Assembly (NCBI GenBank): GCA_011390955.1
Contig: JAABRM010000002.1
Coordinates: 186,001 to 250,000, forward strand
DNA: 64,000 nt
Reading direction: 5' to 3'
DNA from: Oscillatoriales cyanobacterium
Lineage (GTDB): Bacteria; Cyanobacteriota; Cyanobacteriia; Cyanobacteriales; Laspinemataceae
This document shows positions 12,145 through 52,743 of this stretch, one piece after another (within the stretch, counting starts at the first letter, position 1; each line of letters begins with the position of its first letter). The notes under the pieces were generated by a model that was not told where the DNA came from, searched no databases, and saw nothing but the letters and a program-made list of their open reading frames with translations. Made by a program: the position numbers and the translations under genes.

Positions 12145-12257
12145 TGGTGAATTATGGCGCGATCGCGGCCATCAGATCGCCATTCGATCGCCATCATTTA
12201 TTTTCCTCTGTAATTTCCCTCTGGTTTCTCATCTATTAATCCATTCAAGTATCGATT

Positions 12258-12893
12258 ATGAACGCTAAACAATTTGACGAGCAATTTGCCAATTCTAAGC
12301 CGTTTCAATTCTTTTCTGGACTGGGTTTAGTTATCTTTAGTAGTTTGATGTTTATGAGTTGGCAACGGGCATTGTCAGAAGTGGAAACCGCTAATGCAAC
12401 TCCAGGGGCTATGGCGGCGGCTGTATCCTCAACTACCCCAGAAACTCCCGCGATCGGTCAGCCAATTTCTATGGAATCTCCATCGGAAACTCCGATCGCT
12501 GCTGCGGAAGTACCGGAGACAAACTCAATGGCGATCGCCTCTGTCCCGGAAATTATTGATGCAACTGAACTGCAAGAGTTAAAGGCAAAATTGTCTAAGC
12601 AAATTGAGCAAAATTGGACAGAAGTTCCCACCTTTTCTAGTCATCTAATTTATCAAGTTCAAGTAACTTCAGATGGCGCGATCGCCGCTTATCAAGAGGT
12701 GAATCTCCCCGCCAAAGATTATGTGAATCAAACACCTTTAGTTCAATTAGTTCAATTGAGCAATGATTCCATAAATCACAGCGCTATGAACCGTAGCACA
12801 GAGATGACCCAAAAATCCGTGACTAAGTTCTTGGTCATGTTCACTCCAGGGGGACTGCTGGAAGTGAGTCCGTGGCTGAGTCAAGAATCCTAG
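12258..12893 (+). CDS. Membrane-anchored hypothetical protein between nirA and nrtP (paralog 1)
   Basis: The 211-residue protein has one N-terminal transmembrane segment (FFSGLGLVIFSSLMFMSW), a Pro/Ala/Thr/Glu-rich linker of about 70 residues, and a C-terminal domain of about 100 residues with IYQVQVTSDGAIAAYQEVN and LVMFTPGGLLEVSPW. The C-terminal domain has the beta pattern of TonB C-terminal-like domains, which is an impression rather than a match. It is clearly paralogous to the next gene (13178-13867): QNWTEVPTFSSHLIYQ here against ENWTTNPTFTSSLVYQ there. Position inside the nitrate cluster suggests an accessory role, perhaps with the transporter, but no function is known to me. Confidence 0.75.
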   Translation: MNAKQFDEQFANSKPFQFFSGLGLVIFSSLMFMSWQRALSEVETANATPGAMAAAVSSTTPETPAIGQPISMESPSETPIAAAEVPETNSMAIASVPEIIDATELQELKAKLSKQIEQNWTEVPTFSSHLIYQVQVTSDGAIAAYQEVNLPAKDYVNQTPLVQLVQLSNDSINHSAMNRSTEMTQKSVTKFLVMFTPGGLLEVSPWLSQES

Positions 12894-13177
12894 TCAAAAT
12901 TGCTAGGAACGGAGATCGCGATCGCCTTGACTGGCCACCCAACCATTACCGCCAAACCGAGGCAAAAACTTAACCTTAACGGTAAAGCTCTCAGTTCAAG
13001 CAATCCAGACATTCCCAGGATCAATTGTTCACTGCTAACGTTTAAATTTTGGATCTTATGGTAATGTGCAGCCGCAAAGCGAGAATTTTTGATCTGTTTA
13101 ACCTGAACCAACTAGGCCAAATTATCATAAAATTCTCACACATCCGGGCTACTTTAAAGTAAGGAAAAAAACCTGCT

Positions 13178-13867
13178 ATGTCTACCAACAAAGCGACTGA
13201 AAACCCATCTACCGATCAACATTACCGTTCTGATGCCCTAATTGCCACTGGCGCCACCGTGTCTGTATTGATCCTGGGCGGGGTTCTACAATTCATCTCA
13301 CCCAAGGTGACTCCTGAGAAAATGGCCACGCCTGCGGAGGAAAGTCAACCCGCTGTGACTTACTCCACCAGCTTATCGACCGGCAGTGAAGATGCCAACT
13401 CCCTGGAGATGACTACCTCTGAATTGGTCAAACCGACTTCCGAAAAGACGGAAGAAATTGCCCTGACCACAGAGAACCTTTCCGCCACCAGTACCCAGAT
13501 GACGGAAACAGCGACCGCAGCGCCAGAGGCAACCGCCCCAGGGACTACAATGGCGGACACAGAATCGACTATTACCGATCCGGCAACTCTTCAAGCATTA
13601 AACAGCCAAGTATTGAGCAAAATTGATGAAAATTGGACGACTAATCCCACATTTACCTCTAGTTTGGTGTATCAGATTAATGTCACCGAATCAGGAGCGA
13701 TCGCCTCTTACAAAGAAATCAATGAATCAGCCAAAAATTATAGCAATGAAACTCCTTTACCCAGCTTAATCGATCCGGCGGCAACCTCAGACAAAACTGC
13801 TAAATTTGTGGTGGTTTTTACCCCCAGTGGGCAACTGGAAGTTAGCCCTTGGATTTCCGGTAATTAA
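13178..13867 (+). CDS. Membrane-anchored hypothetical protein between nirA and nrtP (paralog 2)
   Basis: The 229-residue protein repeats the architecture of the preceding gene: a short cytoplasmic N terminus, a transmembrane segment (LIATGATVSVLILGGVLQF), a long Thr/Glu/Ala/Pro-rich linker, and a conserved C-terminal domain ending FVVVFTPSGQLEVSPW. AAGGAAAA precedes the ATG. The linker has diverged freely while the C-terminal 100 residues are conserved between the two copies, so the C-terminal domain, probably on the far side of the membrane, carries the function. A 284-base gap separates the two copies, so they may have separate promoters. Confidence 0.75.
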   Translation: MSTNKATENPSTDQHYRSDALIATGATVSVLILGGVLQFISPKVTPEKMATPAEESQPAVTYSTSLSTGSEDANSLEMTTSELVKPTSEKTEEIALTTENLSATSTQMTETATAAPEATAPGTTMADTESTITDPATLQALNSQVLSKIDENWTTNPTFTSSLVYQINVTESGAIASYKEINESAKNYSNETPLPSLIDPAATSDKTAKFVVVFTPSGQLEVSPWISGN

Positions 13868-14321
13868 ACCTGAAATTTTTCCGAACGGCTGGGTGATAAT
13901 GCAACGAAAAAACAATGAGTTATTATCATTAATCAACTCATTATAAATGAGAAATAAATCATAATTTATTCCATTTTTAGACCTGCATTCACCCCAGCTA
14001 TTCCTGGGTTGTATAATAATTTAGCGAACAAGTTAGCGAAAAATTAAACATCGCAATAATAGTCGAGTTTTTCAATCTAGCGGTAAAAATTCCTCTGGTT
14101 CCCTAGCAATCAAGCCATAAAGCCGATTCATCCGAGGGTAAATTCAGCCCAATAAATATGGTTTAAAAGGGAAAAAAACCTTTCCTACAAGACAATAACT
14201 TTTATCCGGCCAAATAAGTTCATCCAGTGAGGTATTTAGACATCTCTACTAGACCTTCTCTATCTTTAACCGAACAACGAATAACCAACAAACAATTAAT
14301 CGCACTAAATAGAGGTATCTA
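13868..14321. other. Gene-free leader upstream of nrtP
   Basis: This 454-base AT-rich gap separates paralog 2 from the nitrate transporter. I looked for the NtcA consensus GTA-N8-TAC and found only an imperfect GTA-N8-TAG near 14010. No gene, terminator or repeat stands out. Confidence 0.45.
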
Positions 14322-15833
14322 ATGTTAAAAGAATTATGGTCTTTAAAGGGTCGATACAAGATCCTACACCTAACATGGTTTGCTTTCTTTCTCTCCTTTG
14401 TTGTCTGGTTTAACTTAGCGCCTTTAGCCACCGCTTTACAGGAAGATTTAGGATTAGAAGTTGGCCAAATACGCACCCTGGCAATTTGTAACGTTGCCCT
14501 GACCGTACCTGCCCGAATTATTATTGGAATGTTATTAGATAAATACGGCCCAAGAATTACTTATTCTTTGCTCTTAATTTATGCCTCAATTCCTTGTCTT
14601 GGTTTTGCCTTAGCCCAAAATTTTAATCAGTTAGTGATTAGCCGTTTGGCTTTAAGTATTGTCGGGGCTGGATTTGTGATTGGTATCCGCATGGTGGCGG
14701 AATGGTTTCCCCCCAAGGAAATTGGTTTGGCTGAAGGAATTTACGGCGGTTGGGGTAACTTTGGTTCTGCCGGGGCAGCCTTTACTTTGCCCACGGTGGC
14801 AGCGGTACTGACAATGGGCGCGGGTACGGCAATCAACTGGCGAGTAGCGATCGCGCTAACAGGAATTATCGCCGCAGTTTACGGAATTTTCTACTATTTT
14901 AATGTCCAAGATACTCCCAGTGGCAAAGTTTATCAAAAGCCCAAGCGCCACGGTGGTTTAGAGGTTACCAGCCAAAAAGATTTCTGGTTTTTAATCTTAA
15001 TGAATTTGCCCTTGTCTGGAGTTTTGGGAGTTCTCGCTTGGCGCTTAAGCAAAGTCGGATTTCTCAGCCAAACCCAGCTATTCATGGTTTGGTCATTTCT
15101 CATCGGTCTTTATGCCTTCCAAAGTTATAAGTGTTGGGATGTGAATAAAGAACTGATGACCGGCAAAAAGCACTATCCCCCTCAAGACCGTTATGAATTT
15201 TCCCAGGTAGCAATTTTAGAACTCACTTATTTAGTTAACTTTGGTTCAGAACTGGCGGTTGTCTCCATGTTGCCCGCATTTTTTGAAGGAACTTTTGGCT
15301 TGAGTAAAGCTTTAGCGGGGATGATTGCCGCTAGTTATGCCTTTATGAACTTAGCAGCCCGTCCCGGTGGTGGCTTAATTTCTGACACTTTAGGCAGCCG
15401 CAAAATGACCATGACTGTTCTTACCGCTGGGATGGGAATTGGCTATCTGATTTTTAGTAGCGTTCGAGGCAATTGGTGGCTACCCTTGGCGATCGCATTA
15501 ACTATGATGGCATCATTTTTTGTCCAAGCTGGTGAAGGTTCTACCTTTGCAATGGTGCCCTTAATTAAACGTCGAGTTACAGGTCAAATTGCTGGCAACG
15601 TCGGGGCTTACGGAAATGTGGGCGCGGTGCTTTATCTAACTATGTTCAGCCTTTTACCCGAAGGCGATATTGGCAACCGTATCTTTTTCCAAGTGCTCGG
15701 AGTGGCTTCATTAATTGTCGCTTTCTTATGTATGTTTTATCTGAAAGAACCTTTGGGTTCTTTTGCGGAACATCACGAAGATGAAGCCCCGGATACTGCC
15801 CCAATCCGAGAAAAGTTGGAAGTATTGCGTTAG
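14322..15833 (+). CDS. nrtP: Nitrate/nitrite permease of the NNP (MFS) family
   Basis: The 503-residue protein is a 12-helix major facilitator of the nitrate-nitrite porter family. Both NNP signatures are present: GIYGGWGNFGSAGAA in helix 5 and GNVGAYGNVGAVLYL in helix 11. The conserved arginines lie in LVISRLALSIVG-type and AARPGGGLISD segments. A long loop after helix 6-7 (YKCWDVNKELMTGKKHYP) is typical of cyanobacterial NrtP. It imports nitrate across the plasma membrane, replacing the NrtABCD ABC system that other cyanobacteria carry here. narB follows after 115 bases. Confidence 0.94.
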   Translation: MLKELWSLKGRYKILHLTWFAFFLSFVVWFNLAPLATALQEDLGLEVGQIRTLAICNVALTVPARIIIGMLLDKYGPRITYSLLLIYASIPCLGFALAQNFNQLVISRLALSIVGAGFVIGIRMVAEWFPPKEIGLAEGIYGGWGNFGSAGAAFTLPTVAAVLTMGAGTAINWRVAIALTGIIAAVYGIFYYFNVQDTPSGKVYQKPKRHGGLEVTSQKDFWFLILMNLPLSGVLGVLAWRLSKVGFLSQTQLFMVWSFLIGLYAFQSYKCWDVNKELMTGKKHYPPQDRYEFSQVAILELTYLVNFGSELAVVSMLPAFFEGTFGLSKALAGMIAASYAFMNLAARPGGGLISDTLGSRKMTMTVLTAGMGIGYLIFSSVRGNWWLPLAIALTMMASFFVQAGEGSTFAMVPLIKRRVTGQIAGNVGAYGNVGAVLYLTMFSLLPEGDIGNRIFFQVLGVASLIVAFLCMFYLKEPLGSFAEHHEDEAPDTAPIREKLEVLR

Positions 15834-47987: not shown

Positions 47988-48089
47988 TTAGATCAGTTTA
48001 ACGGCTCGCAAACCAAAGAACAGCACTAAAGCGGTGACGAAGGCACCACCCAAGAGAGTGAAGTAAGTAACGGCTCCAGCAGCAGTCAT
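47988..48089 (-). CDS. petL: Cytochrome b6f complex subunit PetL
   Basis: This 33-residue frame gives MTAAGAVTYFTLLGGAFVTA then LVLFFGLRAVKLI. One transmembrane helix followed by FGLRxxKxx is the PetL pattern. PetL is a small stabilising subunit of the b6f dimer. The gene is divergent from an aroB 5' fragment, and another copy of the same aroB 5' sequence is the real gene 4.5 kb away, so petL and aroB were probably direct neighbours before the insertion of the protease island. Confidence 0.85.
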   Translation of the reverse strand: MTAAGAVTYFTLLGGAFVTALVLFFGLRAVKLI

Positions 48090-48138
48090 TTATGTTTCTC
48101 CAATTAACAGCATGGTTCTTAATATTGAAACATACTGC

Positions 48139-48284
48139 GATACAATTAAGCCGATTAATGCTTGTTTCGAGGGTCTGAGTCATGGGGTCTGTCATTGATG
48201 TAGCGCTGCCGGAAAATTCCTATCAAATCGCGATCGGCCCTATGGGCATAGCTTCGCGTACCGGCCATCACACCTTGGACGAAC
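48139..48284 (+). repeat. Left copy of the 119-bp aroB 5' duplication, with a 27-bp insertion
   Basis: From GATACAATTAAGCCG to TTGGACGAAC this matches 52625-52743 with very few changes (for example CACC against CAGC near the end). After CGATCGGCC a 27-bp stretch CTATGGGCATAGCTTCGCG + TACCGGCC is added. Confidence 0.93.
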
Positions 48285-48295
48285 CAGTGGGTTAG
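48182..48295 (+). pseudogene. Truncated aroB 5' fragment
   Basis: The frame begins [19 protein letters not shown] like the real AroB at 52668, then has nine inserted residues (PMGIASRTG) from the 27-bp insertion, continues HHTLDEP and stops. Only the first 30 codons of aroB are left, so it cannot make enzyme. It keeps the aroB leader, so it may still be transcribed toward the protease gene at 48332, which lies on the other strand. Confidence 0.85.
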
Positions 48296-48331
48296 CGGTG
48301 ACTTGGAGACTTGATATAAGTGCTCATCAAG

Positions 48332-49615
48332 TTAATCTGACAATAGAGATTCAACTTCTCGCGCCAGTTCAGCCACAGTCTGCTCGACGGACTCAAAATC
48401 AGATCGGGACACTGTTTCTGTTTTGGACTCAGAGGCAAGGTTCATTATAGTGTCAAGACAGGAGTTGATGTCAATGACAAACTCACCTCGAGTAGCAGTT
48501 CTAGCCAACCGCCAAGTTCCATCCGCAAGGGGGTTCATACATCCATCATATCTGTCTACCAGGTTTTTAACCGCTTGGAAGGCAGGATCCCCAGGATCGA
48601 TAATCAGGTCATTGAATTTGTTCAACTCATTTCTTAAAGAATCTGCATTGGGGACATTTGCGACTATTTGGGCAAACTCAGACGGATTAACAGGGGGGCG
48701 TTTAAAGTGCTTACTTAATCGATAATGCTCTATTTTCTCTTGTTCACGGATAAAATCACTCACCTGAATTCCCCAACTGGTATCAATACAATTAGCGTGA
48801 GAGGAATCATACGTTCTCCCTCTTCCGTGAATGCCAATCATCTCGCCTTGTTCGTTAAACACCGGGCCTCCACTCATACCCGAGGCTGTTTCAGCGGTAT
48901 AACAAAGGCTATAATTGCCGTTTGGATCGGCTGGATTGAGAATTTGTTTGAGTTGTCCTTCGCTTAAAATCCGCACGCGATCGGCCTCTTGGTCATAGGG
49001 CCACCCTGATACAAAGACAAAATCCCCCTCTCCCAGACCACTAGAATCTCCAATGGGAACAATGGGATAATCTTTATTGCTTTCAAACTGGATTAAAGCA
49101 AGGTCATAGCCATCCACAACTTTTCGCTGCGAATCAAACTCGCCAAATCGAGTGATGATTTGGTCAGTTTCGTCTGGTCGATCGAGATTTGGATATGCTG
49201 GCTCATAGTTGTTAATCTGATGTAACTCACCATCATAGGTTCGAATCACGTAAGAACCTCGGAATGGAGCCACGTGCTGATTGGTCAAAACATAATAAGT
49301 CGATCCCCTTCGGGCTACCAACATACCAGAACCAGCGTTGATGAACTTTTGTCCTCGATCGAGTGCAGCACCAAAATTTTCTTGACTCAATTCATCTGGA
49401 ATGATAAAAACAGTGGTGGTTCGAGCAATATAATTAATTGTTTCCCAATTCCCATGAGCGGCAACTTGAAAACTTGTCACCGTTCCGATATCCCTAGAAT
49501 CAATTGGGCGGATTGTCCCATTGACTTCTACAGCAGTCATGGTCAGGTATAAAATTAAACCGACGATCGCGGGAATGAATAACTTTGTTAAATATCTGGG
49601 TATTTTGAGTAACAT
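48332..49615 (-). CDS. Exported trypsin-like serine protease with C-terminal SLH-like segment
   Basis: The 427-residue protein has an N-terminal membrane/signal segment (FIPAIVGLILYLTMTAVE) and an S1/S46-type chymotrypsin-fold protease domain: His114 in YVLTNQHVA, Asp171 in DGYDLALIQFE, Ser248 in ETASGMSGGPVFNEQGEMIG. C-terminal to it, residues 354-395 (YDGCMNPLADGTWR ... TRGEFVIDINSCLD) match the second half of an SLH motif, followed by an acidic coiled-coil-like end. It is the last gene of a five-gene operon. The SLH part could hold the protease on the cell wall. The triad is complete, so it is probably active. Confidence 0.85.
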   Translation of the reverse strand: MLLKIPRYLTKLFIPAIVGLILYLTMTAVEVNGTIRPIDSRDIGTVTSFQVAAHGNWETINYIARTTTVFIIPDELSQENFGAALDRGQKFINAGSGMLVARRGSTYYVLTNQHVAPFRGSYVIRTYDGELHQINNYEPAYPNLDRPDETDQIITRFGEFDSQRKVVDGYDLALIQFESNKDYPIVPIGDSSGLGEGDFVFVSGWPYDQEADRVRILSEGQLKQILNPADPNGNYSLCYTAETASGMSGGPVFNEQGEMIGIHGRGRTYDSSHANCIDTSWGIQVSDFIREQEKIEHYRLSKHFKRPPVNPSEFAQIVANVPNADSLRNELNKFNDLIIDPGDPAFQAVKNLVDRYDGCMNPLADGTWRLARTATRGEFVIDINSCLDTIMNLASESKTETVSRSDFESVEQTVAELAREVESLLSD

Positions 49616-49672
49616 TGTTTTAGGAAATGAAGCATAGATTTGGATTAGATTAAGCGAATTTTCACCAGAACG

Positions 49673-50101
49673 TTAGATTGGAGGGGAATCAATAAAGGGA
49701 GAATTTCGCAGTAAATTGACTTGTTCTTGCAGCGCATTAATGATATTTTTCAGGTTGGCCACTTCATCGTGAGTCACAGGATTGCTTTTAGCATCTAAGA
49801 TTGCTTCTTCTACTTGTTGCATACATAAATTTAAATTGGCCGCTAGTTCATAGCGAGTTAAAGCCCTGTTGCCTCGAAACGTGCCATCGGGATAAGGTAA
49901 AAAACAATTGTACTTACGACCCAAAGATTCTAAAGCTTGATAGTAGTAATCAGTCGGTTGAACATCTACTGGCCGTTGAAAATCAAATTCCGCTAAAGTC
50001 TGAATGGGAGTGATTAAAATTACCGAAAAGGCAATAATTACCCCTGTAATGATGCTAACCAAACTTAGTCTAAGCATCGATGGTGTAGATTTACGTTTCA
50101 T
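49673..50101 (-). CDS. Small exported SLH-domain protein (copy 1)
   Basis: The 142-residue protein has a signal/anchor (LSLVSIITGVIIAFSVILIT) and one SLH domain: VDVQPTDYYYQALESLGRKY, then PYPDGTFRGNRALTRYELAA and LNLCMQQVEEAI. A short coiled coil (VANLKNIINALQEQVNLLR) follows. This is the N-terminal part of cyanobacterial OprB-type porins without the barrel. SLH domains bind peptidoglycan-linked polymers, so it is likely a wall-bound adaptor. It lies 57 bases upstream of the protease gene and 40 bases downstream of copy 2. Confidence 0.85.
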   Translation of the reverse strand: MKRKSTPSMLRLSLVSIITGVIIAFSVILITPIQTLAEFDFQRPVDVQPTDYYYQALESLGRKYNCFLPYPDGTFRGNRALTRYELAANLNLCMQQVEEAILDAKSNPVTHDEVANLKNIINALQEQVNLLRNSPFIDSPPI

Positions 50102-50141
50102 GGCATTTGCTCAAACTATTAAAGATAGAAAAGATTTGAAT

Positions 50142-50609
50142 TTAAATCGAAAAATCATTTGAAGAAGAAGACTCTTTTAGTTCTCGGATAGATTTTTGGA
50201 GATTTTTGAGAGATTCTTGTAATTCAGCCCAGTCTGCGGCAGTTGCGGTCCGTGTGCGTGGTTTGATCTGGATGGTTTGCTCTATGCGCATGAGCATAGC
50301 GTTAAACCATTGGGCAAGTTCGCCTCGCCTCACTGCGCGATTTCCTCGAAAAGTCCCATCGGGATAAGCTACGGGTACGCCATAATTTGTCACCAGATAA
50401 TCTAGGGCTTGAAATGCCCAATCCGTGGGCATGACATCCCTCAATTCACTGGCTGATGATACCGAAGCTTGTTCAGTAGTAAAGATCGATGTATCGGCTT
50501 CTGTGGCTAAAATTTGTGGGGTAAAAATTGTCGCCGTTACAATCAGGATTAAACTCGTCCCCAGGGCAATAATCCCGAAAAATAAAATATTCCAGTGATA
50601 TTTGAACAT
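50142..50609 (-). CDS. Small exported SLH-domain protein (copy 2)
   Basis: The 155-residue protein has an N-terminal hydrophobic segment (ILFFGIIALGTSLILIVTAT), an SLH domain (LRDVMPTDWAFQALDYLVTN, then AYPDGTFRGNRAVRRGELAQ) and a helical tail with EELQ/LKNLQKSIRELKESSSS character. It is a distant paralog of copy 1. It differs from porin SLH domains in lacking the usual cysteine and in a double Arg (AVRRGE). Two single-SLH proteins in one operon suggest a hetero-oligomer or alternative anchors. Confidence 0.83.
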   Translation of the reverse strand: MFKYHWNILFFGIIALGTSLILIVTATIFTPQILATEADTSIFTTEQASVSSASELRDVMPTDWAFQALDYLVTNYGVPVAYPDGTFRGNRAVRRGELAQWFNAMLMRIEQTIQIKPRTRTATAADWAELQESLKNLQKSIRELKESSSSNDFSI

Positions 50610-50662
50610 AATTGATTCAGGGATCTAATATTGTCAGATAAAGTTAGTTAAATTTAGTAAAT

Positions 50663-51583
50663 TTAGATTTCCTCAGAACTCTGGTTCCGATATACGGGTT
50701 GTTCTGGGAAAGCCGGAAACGGTATTGACGAAGATTTCAGTCTTTGCTGAAAGGTAGAAATAGGAATTGCCCAACTAAACTGGGACATTTGCTCGTACAG
50801 TTCTGAAGATGGGAATGTACCATTGGTAAACTGAAAGGCCTCAATTCCTTGCAAGACAGCTTGGCCACGTCCGTGAATGCCAATTAATTCACCCTGCTGA
50901 TTAAAAACCGGTCCACCACTCATGCCGCCGCTAGTTTCGTTGGTATAAGCAAGCTGATATCCTCGGAGTAAACTGTGATGGGATAACACCATAGCCAAAT
51001 TCCCTTGAGTGAATCTAAAAGCTCTCCAGCCCCAATCGTCAGTGATATCTAAATTGTTGCCGTCTCTAGGTTGGTAGTTGGGAAACCCTGAAATATAAAT
51101 GGGGTCGCCAATAGAAATCTGTTCGAGATTTCCCAAGGTAGCGACAGAATAATGGTTCTGGCTTTCAAAGCGGATCAGTGCCAAATCGATTCCTGGAAAA
51201 TCAGGTAGGTTCTGACGCACCCCAAGATGAATTTTTCCATCTGCGGTTAGCACTTGATAGGTTTGCTCTGAACTGCTATTCGCAACATGATCGCAGGTTA
51301 AAACTGTATAGGTTTGTCCCTCGCGAGAAATGAGGACGCCAGAACCGGCGCCTGGGTTGGTCAAAATTCTGACGGTGACTTGTCTGGCAACTTGAACGAC
51401 TGACCTGGTTGTGGCTTCTTGAGAAAGGAAGGTGGAATTGTGAGAAAATACGGGTTGAGAGAATTCTTGAAGCAATTTTGCCAGATCGGGCACCGCCACA
51501 AAATTCAGGCATCCCGTGAGTAAAATTGTTCCCCAACTCATATTCCAAGAGTATAAACGTTGAATATGAAGTTTAGGAGTCAT
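50663..51583 (-). CDS. Exported trypsin-like serine protease
   Basis: The 306-residue protein has a hydrophobic N terminus (MSWGTILLTGCLNFVAV) and a chymotrypsin-fold domain: His99 in YTVLTCDHVANSS, Asp133 in FPGIDLALIRFE and Ser222 in ETSGGMSGGPVFNQQGELIG. The GIHGRG after the Ser block is shared with the 48332 protease, so they are related, but this one has no SLH segment. It is preceded by the COP23 gene (134 bases) and followed by SLH copy 2 (53 bases). All triad residues are present. Confidence 0.87.
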   Translation of the reverse strand: MTPKLHIQRLYSWNMSWGTILLTGCLNFVAVPDLAKLLQEFSQPVFSHNSTFLSQEATTRSVVQVARQVTVRILTNPGAGSGVLISREGQTYTVLTCDHVANSSSEQTYQVLTADGKIHLGVRQNLPDFPGIDLALIRFESQNHYSVATLGNLEQISIGDPIYISGFPNYQPRDGNNLDITDDWGWRAFRFTQGNLAMVLSHHSLLRGYQLAYTNETSGGMSGGPVFNQQGELIGIHGRGQAVLQGIEAFQFTNGTFPSSELYEQMSQFSWAIPISTFQQRLKSSSIPFPAFPEQPVYRNQSSEEI

Positions 51584-51717
51584 GGTGAAATGGAATGATT
51601 AGATGCTTTAGTCGGATTACCATGAGTCATCCCAAAACGATCGTCCGTTGGGGAACTCAAGAACTGATGAACCAATCAAGACCGAACAATCAAGATTAAA
51701 TCGAGATTAAATCTTGA

Positions 51718-52299
51718 TTAAATTATGTCGTCGTCATGCCCTTGTATTGGTTCTGTCTCGCCTTCCTCTAGCATTTCTTCAACCATCTGTCCAAACCGGA
51801 CAACGGTTCGAGGAATATTTTCTTGGCCAGGAGTTCCCTGTTGATAAGGATTAGCACGGCGATTGAGGAGGTTAGCGAGAAATTGACCAGGATCTCGCCC
51901 TGGAGAGATGGTTACTAAAAGGTTGTTGGAATTGCAACGAGATTGCTCATTATTCACCCAACAAATCACATCGTAACCGTTGACTACACCTGTGGTTAGG
52001 AGCACAGAACTAAATAGACCGCCAACTTCTGTCACCACGCTATTTAAACGAGATGTCACCTCGTCGCAACGTCGCTTGGGAGTCCAGCCACTTCCCTCGA
52101 AAGCAGCACTATTCCAAGTAATCAGGGGTTCGGTTTTTTTCCCCGACGCGCTGACGGCTATGGTTGCATAACCCCCTCCCGCTCCTATACATTGAAAGGT
52201 AGTTTTGTTCGCAACAGCAGGTTGACTGGTCAGGGCGATCGCAGCCGTCAAAGTTGCACTCGCGATCGATAAGGTTGGTACAATTTTTTTTATAGACAT
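51718..52299 (-). CDS. COP23-domain exported protein
   Basis: The 193-residue protein has a clear signal peptide (LSIASATLTAAIALTSQPAVA) and a COP23 domain: TTFQCIGAGGGYATIAVSAS, PLITWNSAAFEGSGWTPKRRCDEVTSRLNS, DVICWVNNEQSRCNSNNLLVTI and FLANLLNRRANP. COP23 was named for a circadian, membrane-located 23-kDa protein of Cyanothece; its activity is not known. Four cysteines could form two disulfides. A Glu-rich tail ends in GHDDDII. It is the first gene of the operon. Confidence 0.87.
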   Translation of the reverse strand: MSIKKIVPTLSIASATLTAAIALTSQPAVANKTTFQCIGAGGGYATIAVSASGKKTEPLITWNSAAFEGSGWTPKRRCDEVTSRLNSVVTEVGGLFSSVLLTTGVVNGYDVICWVNNEQSRCNSNNLLVTISPGRDPGQFLANLLNRRANPYQQGTPGQENIPRTVVRFGQMVEEMLEEGETEPIQGHDDDII

Positions 52300-52624
52300 A
52301 TGACTTCGCTCTAATTCTATAGGTAGATTTTTCCTTCGAGATTTTTTGATTGATTTAACAATTCGGATAGTTTTTGATCTATTGTGTCAGCCAGTGGAGT
52401 GAGGTTTTTGCTGCGGTTGCAACCATCGATCGGGAAATTGTCCGAACTATTCACGCACTTATATGTGTATTATAACCTAAATTTAAGTGTAAGTGCTGAC
52501 TCGAAATCAGGTTTTTAGCACCTCTGTTGGGGAATGTGCCAATAAATAGCCCAACCCCAGACCCCCGATGAAAGCGGGTACAGGCTCTAAGAATCAAAGT
52601 ATTTTTGATTTTGGCGAAGGTATT
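52300..52624. other. Promoter region of the protease operon
   Basis: The gap between the COP23 start and the right copy of the aroB duplication must hold the operon promoter. It contains a CCCCAGACCCCCGATGAAAGC fragment near 52550 and an AT-rich block. No gene or clear motif is visible. Confidence 0.45.
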
Positions 52625-52743
52625 GATACAATTAAGCCGATTAATGCTTGTTTCGAGGGTCTGAGTCATGGGGTCTGTCATTGATGTAGCGCTGCCGGAA
52701 AATTCCTATCAAATCGCGATTGGCCATCACAGCTTGGACGAAC
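52625..52743 (+). repeat. Right copy of the 119-bp aroB 5' duplication
   Basis: This is the aroB leader and first 25 codons, repeated at 48139-48284. Distance between the two starts is 4486 bases, equal to the protease island. Confidence 0.93.

Follow-up and report, generated by a model that had tools for sequence, protein, structure and literature searches.

Do five adjacent genes for a COP23-domain protein, two trypsin-like serine proteases and two small S-layer homology (SLH) proteins form a functional unit, and if so, where in the cell envelope would it act? We addressed this question for a cluster in an Oscillatoriales cyanobacterium (assembly GCA_011390955.1), which lies in a 64,000-nucleotide stretch of contig JAABRM010000002.1 (positions 186,001 to 250,000, forward strand). 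This whole stretch is called the window below; bare coordinates refer to it, and other loci and genomes carry L and G numbers. The explanation that we regard as the best, and as evenly poised between right and wrong, is a periplasmic, wall-docked proteolysis module. The five open reading frames are encoded on the minus strand within 48332-52299 and are separated by intergenic gaps of 134, 53, 40 and 57 nt, exactly as the original prediction had described them:

51718-52299, minus strand, COP23-domain protein, first gene of the cluster (193 aa; PF14218)
50663-51583, minus strand, trypsin-like serine protease A (306 aa; Trypsin_2; triad H99, D133, S222)
50142-50609, minus strand, free SLH plus coiled-coil protein, putative barrel-less porin stalk (155 aa; NF033921)
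49673-50101, minus strand, free SLH plus coiled-coil protein, putative barrel-less porin stalk (142 aa; NF033921)
48332-49615, minus strand, trypsin-like serine protease B (427 aa), with a C-terminal SLH plus coiled-coil module at residues ~339-424

The source genome (7.12 Mb, 113 contigs) encodes 12 COP23 genes and 22 Trypsin_2 stretches, the latter collapsing to 19 genes. A protease gene lies directly downstream and on the same strand for eight of the 12 COP23 genes, against about 0.013 expected per gene (simple binomial ~5e-13, or ~1e-11 when the window locus is left out). This association had been set beforehand as one of the points on which the original prediction would stand or fall, and it is commoner than chance. 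Some of the eight partner proteases carry TPR repeats, the commonest added domain, one (L018) is a fusion with a PBP_like_2 solute-binding domain, and some have no further domain. Two very similar pairs of COP23 and a protease with TPR repeats lie close to contig ends, on C77 and C51 (L016:218-2792 and L017:570-3365), reflecting either a recent duplication or an assembly effect.

Among the named loci picked by COP23 similarity (n=24), 22 of 25 COP23 genes are linked or fused to a protease gene, and for none of 111 COP23 genes does the nearest protease lie at 1.5-6 kb, some of the stretches ending earlier at contig ends. COP23 matches are also present on ten plasmid records, five of them typed as conjugative, and a protease gene is encoded beside COP23 in nine; on the tenth, from Nostoc carneum, there is none within 1.1 kb before the record edge. 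At three of the ten plasmid loci (L171, L172 and L173), serine/threonine kinase genes are annotated near the COP23 and protease genes. The two domains even occur in single chains, as fusions of protease, beta helix and COP23 in L081 and L082 and as a 989-aa fusion of AAA_35, protease and COP23 in Kamptonema sp. UHCC 0994 (L031:5463-8432). Fusions of a right-handed beta-helix (DUF1565) with COP23 were seen at L081:6354-8720, L082:7887-10181 and L081:9038-10507, two of them also with a protease domain. Pairwise distances among COP23 domains are correlated with those among their partner proteases (r 0.64 over 62 pairs, with none of 2000 permutations as high), as they are for the eight source-genome pairs (r 0.71; 2 of 2000 as high) and for 31 thinned pairs (r 0.45; 0 of 2000). 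Judged from these sequences, the genes for COP23 and a trypsin-like protease form a pair that recurs and is not a product of chance.

Membership of the first gene in the COP23 family, also part of the original prediction, is clear from a PF14218 match of 100.5 bits against a curated cut-off of 27. We reconstructed a phylogeny of 103 COP23 domains (after removal of seven duplicates and one short row; the bootstrap is not fully settled), in which 29 solo rows form one clade with support of 100/100 and a long branch. The COP23 of the cluster falls outside this clade as sister of the Arthrospira COP23 (support 100/99). Outside the solo clade 60 of 74 rows are protease-linked, which is not an unbiased rate, as the rows beyond this genome and an even sample of the class were found by similarity to the window proteins or their paralogues. 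In that class sample of 59 genomes, source included, a COP23 match is present in 41, and most of the unlinked COP23 genes fall in the solo clade. A weak COP23 match in L129 was not recovered by the COP23 profile, and one solo-clade COP23 comes from a record named as a Chloroflexaceae metagenome bin (L038:6261-7172), by transfer or by mis-binning.

Four cysteines are invariant across the 12 COP23 paralogues of the genome, and an AlphaFold model of the cluster COP23 built with 23 sequences (mean pLDDT 79.5, pTM 0.70) is confident in its core. A known fold was rejected on weak structure and sequence matches, which does not establish a new fold: Foldseek gave no relative at E<=0.001, the best VIA-align match reached Z 4.7 over 62 residues, and a solved sequence relative was absent at E<=1. 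In the accessible part of PMC6315102, COP23 is described as a membrane protein whose transcript level in UCYN-A changes strongly between day and night. The papers on COP23 in cyanobacteria among the literature searched are transcript or stress-response studies by their titles and the start of their abstracts, and the accessible texts in the literature searched, which does not extend to most subscription journals, give COP23 no activity.

The pair is part of a larger arrangement. Searching 59 genomes (the source and 58 relatives) with protease B, we obtained 22 matches outside the source genome and fetched 16 of these loci: all 14 matches with E<=3e-42, and two from the eight weaker matches. 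COP23 is encoded upstream in all 14 strong loci, with two copies in eight of them, and a gene with an SLH module (527-693 aa) follows downstream on the same strand in 13, giving the order COP23, protease, SLH porin at 13 of 14 loci that had been chosen by protease similarity alone. Five of these 13 porins, together with that of L121, were compared with NCBIfam, where all six exceed the porin cut-off with 402-459 bits; the remaining ones were called from the SLH profile and their length. The five-gene order itself is conserved in Arthrospira sp. PCC 9108 (L020), where the proteins are 44-58% identical and no flanking genes are shared in the compared stretch. The full-length fusion of protease and SLH module was found only in the source genome among 243 genomes of the order (six candidates per genome scored), and within the genus Arthrospira the fusion of the five-gene type occurs in one of two genomes searched. 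A candidate third fusion on a Calothrix plasmid (84% cover) turned out to be a trypsin-TPR protein. By gene content and order, the wider conserved unit is COP23 plus protease, followed in one group by a porin, and the five-gene form is a rare inserted variant of it; conservation of the gene order, which the original prediction had proposed to check, extends to Arthrospira, and what is conserved more widely is the unit of COP23, protease and porin. The flanks of the Arthrospira cluster (L020:2560-4908 and 12241-15482) presumably hold, as judged by eye, a caspase-like gene region and type I restriction-modification-like genes.

The porin explains the SLH parts of the cluster, which had first been described as two single SLH domains with a helical tail and an SLH half-motif at the end of one protease. 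With the Pfam SLH profile the two small proteins score 17.2 and 19.4 bits, under the cut-off of 20.8, and the tail of protease B has no match at E<=1. The SLH/OprB porin model NF033921 matches all three chains over approximately the first 95 of its 485 positions: the 142-aa protein (49673-50101) with E 7.5e-26 at model positions 9-95, the 155-aa protein (50142-50609) with E 6.6e-22 at positions 1-91, and protease B at residues 339-424 with E 2.2e-14 at positions 10-94. All three remain below the whole-protein cut-off of 100 bits (90.8, 77.8 and 53.0 bits), and an OprB barrel gave no match in them at E<=1. The helical-tailed small proteins of the original prediction are therefore retained as SLH plus coiled-coil chains that stay below the Pfam cut-off, and the SLH-type tail of protease B is retained as well, rather as the SLH plus coiled-coil part of a porin than as a half-motif. 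Given the order COP23, protease and full-size SLH porin at 13 of 14 loci, the SLH parts of the cluster would correspond to the stalk of that porin; by their profile matches, the three modules represent the stalk (SLH plus coiled coil) of a porin that tethers the outer membrane, with the barrel missing.

A profile built from the six window and Arthrospira chains also matches the solved SlpA and OmpM chains (7zgx with E 2e-14; 8bz2, 8bym and 8bys with E 7e-13 to 5e-12). In the accessible parts of PMC10628300 and PMC9388160, OmpM and SlpA are described as having a stalk of three identical chains, which brings together the SLH parts that bind the wall. All three tails in the window have hydrophobic residues at 6/6 a/d positions of a three-heptad stretch, a pattern equalled in 12, 65 and 11 of 5000 shuffles and compatible with assembly into a trimeric stalk. 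In a phylogeny of 37 SLH plus coiled-coil modules (99 columns) each window chain pairs with one Arthrospira chain, with support of 100/98, 98/98 and 99/97, indicating that the three chain types predate the split of the two clusters; the orthologue of the 155-aa protein is L020:9639-10091 (99/97) and that of the 142-aa protein is L020:10128-10565 (98/98). As the stalk of OmpM and SlpA has three identical chains and three different single-SLH chains are encoded here, these observations suggest a barrel-less heterotrimer that carries one protease. The operon porins were also considered as the specific ancestor of the three tails, but on the 99 columns the tails stand on three separate branches. 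In the same-family genome G005, two genes lie side by side (L142:8064-11237) whose products, of 474 and 534 aa, each comprise three SLH plus coiled-coil modules but lack a barrel; they are possible single-chain stalk trimers.

Both proteases match Trypsin_2 (79.4 bits for protease A and 76.4 bits for protease B; cut-off 27.6), and H99, D133 and S222, in protease A numbering, are invariant in ten aligned proteases, in agreement with the two chymotrypsin-fold proteases with complete triads that had been predicted. The His/Asp/Ser triad is intact in 61 of 62 COP23-partner proteases. The nearest solved sequences to a cluster protease are Do/HtrA proteases (E 1.1e-6), and protease B is the orthologue of Arthrospira L020:10510-11898 at 48% identity; its AlphaFold model has low-confidence helices at 376-396 and 404-426.

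The cluster is absent from both same-genus genomes of our sample (G001 and G002), in which the near flanking genes keep their order with nothing in between, at 85-97% protein identity. Its boundaries are as follows:

48240-52624, no strand, inserted segment of 4385 bp with all five genes, absent from G001 and G002
48139-48239, no strand, left copy of a 101-nt direct repeat, 99% identical to 52625-52725
52625-52725, no strand, right copy of the direct repeat, comprising the aroB upstream region and the 5' end of aroB

At the empty site of G002 the repeat occurs once, and the source genome contains no copy beyond these two. The left one is a duplicate in which the match is lost beyond an indel. 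In G+C content the insert (43.3%) differs little from its flanks (44.5% and 43.4%). The segment does not qualify as an autonomous mobile element with its own transposase or recombinase and conserved ends, as neither enzyme is encoded among its five genes and its ends have no similarity to those of the Arthrospira cluster. Alternatively to a gain, the siblings could have lost the segment by recombination between such repeats. The Arthrospira cluster is flanked by an imperfect 79-nt repeat; the sibling genome G299 has a 94% match to L020 4733-7447, a stretch that takes in the left repeat copy, and a 92% match to the right copy over 79 nt. These data do not support a clean insertion there, the site being rearranged, with a downstream flank that is not common to both genomes and repeat pieces elsewhere in the genome. 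In the window, the repeat (48139-48239/52625-52725) is nearly identical to the sibling genomes while the flanks differ by ~5-12%, which suggests that the petM-aroB intergenic region may be under constraint; a short minus-strand open reading frame at ~47990-48095, between an epimerase gene and the insertion, is by eye what we take to be petM (cytochrome b6f small subunit). Within the cluster, an AT-rich inverted repeat with 15-nt arms and a 2-nt loop (51688-51719) is located where the COP23 gene ends, within the 134-nt gap ahead of protease A.

We propose that the module would work as follows. The porin of the related operons connects the wall with the outer membrane by its SLH plus coiled-coil stalk. 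Here the barrel is gone, and what is left are two free stalk proteins and a stalk-type tail on protease B. These three different chains may assemble, as in OmpM and SlpA, to give a stalk that is attached to the wall and keeps protease B in the periplasm; protease A would be its partner. COP23, predicted to be secreted, with its four conserved cysteines and usually encoded just before the protease, would bind a protease as an inhibitor, chaperone or substrate adaptor, of which we prefer inhibitor or adaptor. The module would then trim or destroy proteins that enter the periplasm or misfold there. The original prediction had the SLH domains dock the proteases on the wall at the cell surface. Docking accords with a wall-polymer-binding family, but the periplasm is the likely place: the SLH modules belong to the SLH/OprB porin (OmpM-like) type, which acts under the outer membrane, and all five translations have hydrophobic N-termini by eye, which is what stands of the signal or anchor segments first described; surface display was set aside on this porin type.

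More tentatively, the tether could be an enzyme platform in the form of an obligate 1:1:1 wall-bound heterotrimer of paralogous chains, which carries a single protease under COP23 control. This would give the COP23 family its first molecular role and would make COP23-type proteins a large, partly plasmid-borne family of dedicated secreted-protease partners in cyanobacteria. The pairing and the three fusions offer a testable hypothesis for a strongly day-night-regulated envelope family, the cluster would illustrate the conversion of an outer-membrane tether, through loss of its barrel, into an enzyme anchor, and it is compact enough for transfer to a laboratory cyanobacterium.

Several observations weigh against a dedicated, COP23-controlled protease module. 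In the class sample without the source genome only 10 of 49 COP23 genes are protease-linked, which can be attributed to the solo rows forming one clade and which indicates that COP23 also works without a protease neighbour. All three single-chain fusions place COP23 after the protease, opposite to the operons, and in the one from L031 the triad looks degenerate, D and N replacing H and D in the 62-partner alignment. COP23 has no recognisable relative of known function, the protease B model is weak (mean pLDDT 65.2), and the 37-module tree does not trace the three tails to the operon porins. Finally, operon-mates co-diverge without touching, so the distance correlation speaks for a coherent unit and not for contact.

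Among the alternatives, a conflict or defence module survives best but is in our view doubtful; here a mobile protease effector, with COP23 as guard or immunity partner, would act against periplasmic phage or competitor proteins. Such a role in defence or competition is possible because the unit is accessory and inserted and its core pair is plasmid-borne, half of the plasmids being conjugative. Many divergent COP23 paralogues in one genome would fit it too, as would the trypsin-like proteases with dedicated partners, Trypco1 and Trypco2, that are described for conflict systems of multicellular bacteria in the accessible part of PMC7159879, although COP23 does not appear in the text of that paper. 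A known defence system was rejected, since the PADLOC matches are confined to the generic protease domain (LmuA with E 1.8e-15 and 6.9e-12; RT-Protease_XI) and the insert lacks the other components of those systems. PHROGs gave only generic protease or unknown families and one marginal tail-protein match, and a phage origin was likewise rejected.

It is unlikely that the cluster controls outer-membrane tethering, with free stalks mixing or competing with those of SLH porins and the proteases cutting stalks, such that the outer membrane is loosened or porins are turned over. The stalk modules are of porin type, a porin is part of the wider operon, the genome has eight full-length porins above the cut-off that could serve as targets, and loss of Slr1908 raises vesicle release in Synechocystis according to the accessible part of PMC8707739; yet porin destruction sits poorly with operons in which the same protease stands next to an intact porin, many COP23-protease pairs have no porin nearby, and nothing points to porins as substrates. 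Still less probable is nutrient acquisition, in which the module would process proteins or peptides entering through the neighbouring porin: the porin in the operon at 13 of 14 loci, the name of its model (iron uptake porin) and the PBP_like_2 fusion of L018 all point that way, but the window cluster itself has no barrel or transporter, and the domain most often added to the partners in this genome is the TPR repeat and not a binding protein. That five secreted-protein genes merely adjoin without joint function is very improbable, for even though a scan for promoter- and terminator-like sites across the cluster stayed within chance level, the same five-gene order recurs in Arthrospira without common flanking genes and the COP23-protease linkage in many lineages and on plasmids.

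No description of this gene set was found in the literature searched, in line with the original prediction; no paper there joins COP23 with trypsin, or OprB, trypsin-like and cyanobacteria, and the accessible part of a survey of prokaryotic serine proteases records SLH with subtilisin in one species (PMC2605481). The SLH/OprB porins (NF033921; SomA/SomB, Slr1841, Slr1908) and the OmpM/SlpA tethers share the SLH plus coiled-coil N-terminal part, but the window chains lack the OprB barrel, one of them bears a protease, and there are three chain types instead of one. The circadian oscillating protein COP23 (PF14218) shares its domain with the first gene of the cluster, which differs from the solo forms in standing outside their clade and beside proteases. 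The periplasmic Do/HtrA/HhoA proteases have the same trypsin-like fold with His, Asp and Ser, whereas the window proteases have no PDZ domain match at E<=1 and score 42.2 and 49.2 bits against a Do/HtrA cut-off of 416.2. The Trypco1/Trypco2 trypsins resemble the cluster in their recurring partner gene, mobility and multicellular hosts (PMC7159879, accessible part); in contrast to the NTP-dependent conflict systems, the insert has no MoxR, vWA, STAND, GTPase or NucA gene and encodes secreted-type proteins. Lamassu LmuA and RT-Protease share a weak protease-domain match, but no SMC-like or reverse transcriptase partner is found in the insert at E<=1. On sequence grounds we assign the cluster, barrel-less and protease-bearing, to the operons of COP23, protease and porin as a variant, rather than to the porins, the HtrA proteases or the known conflict systems.

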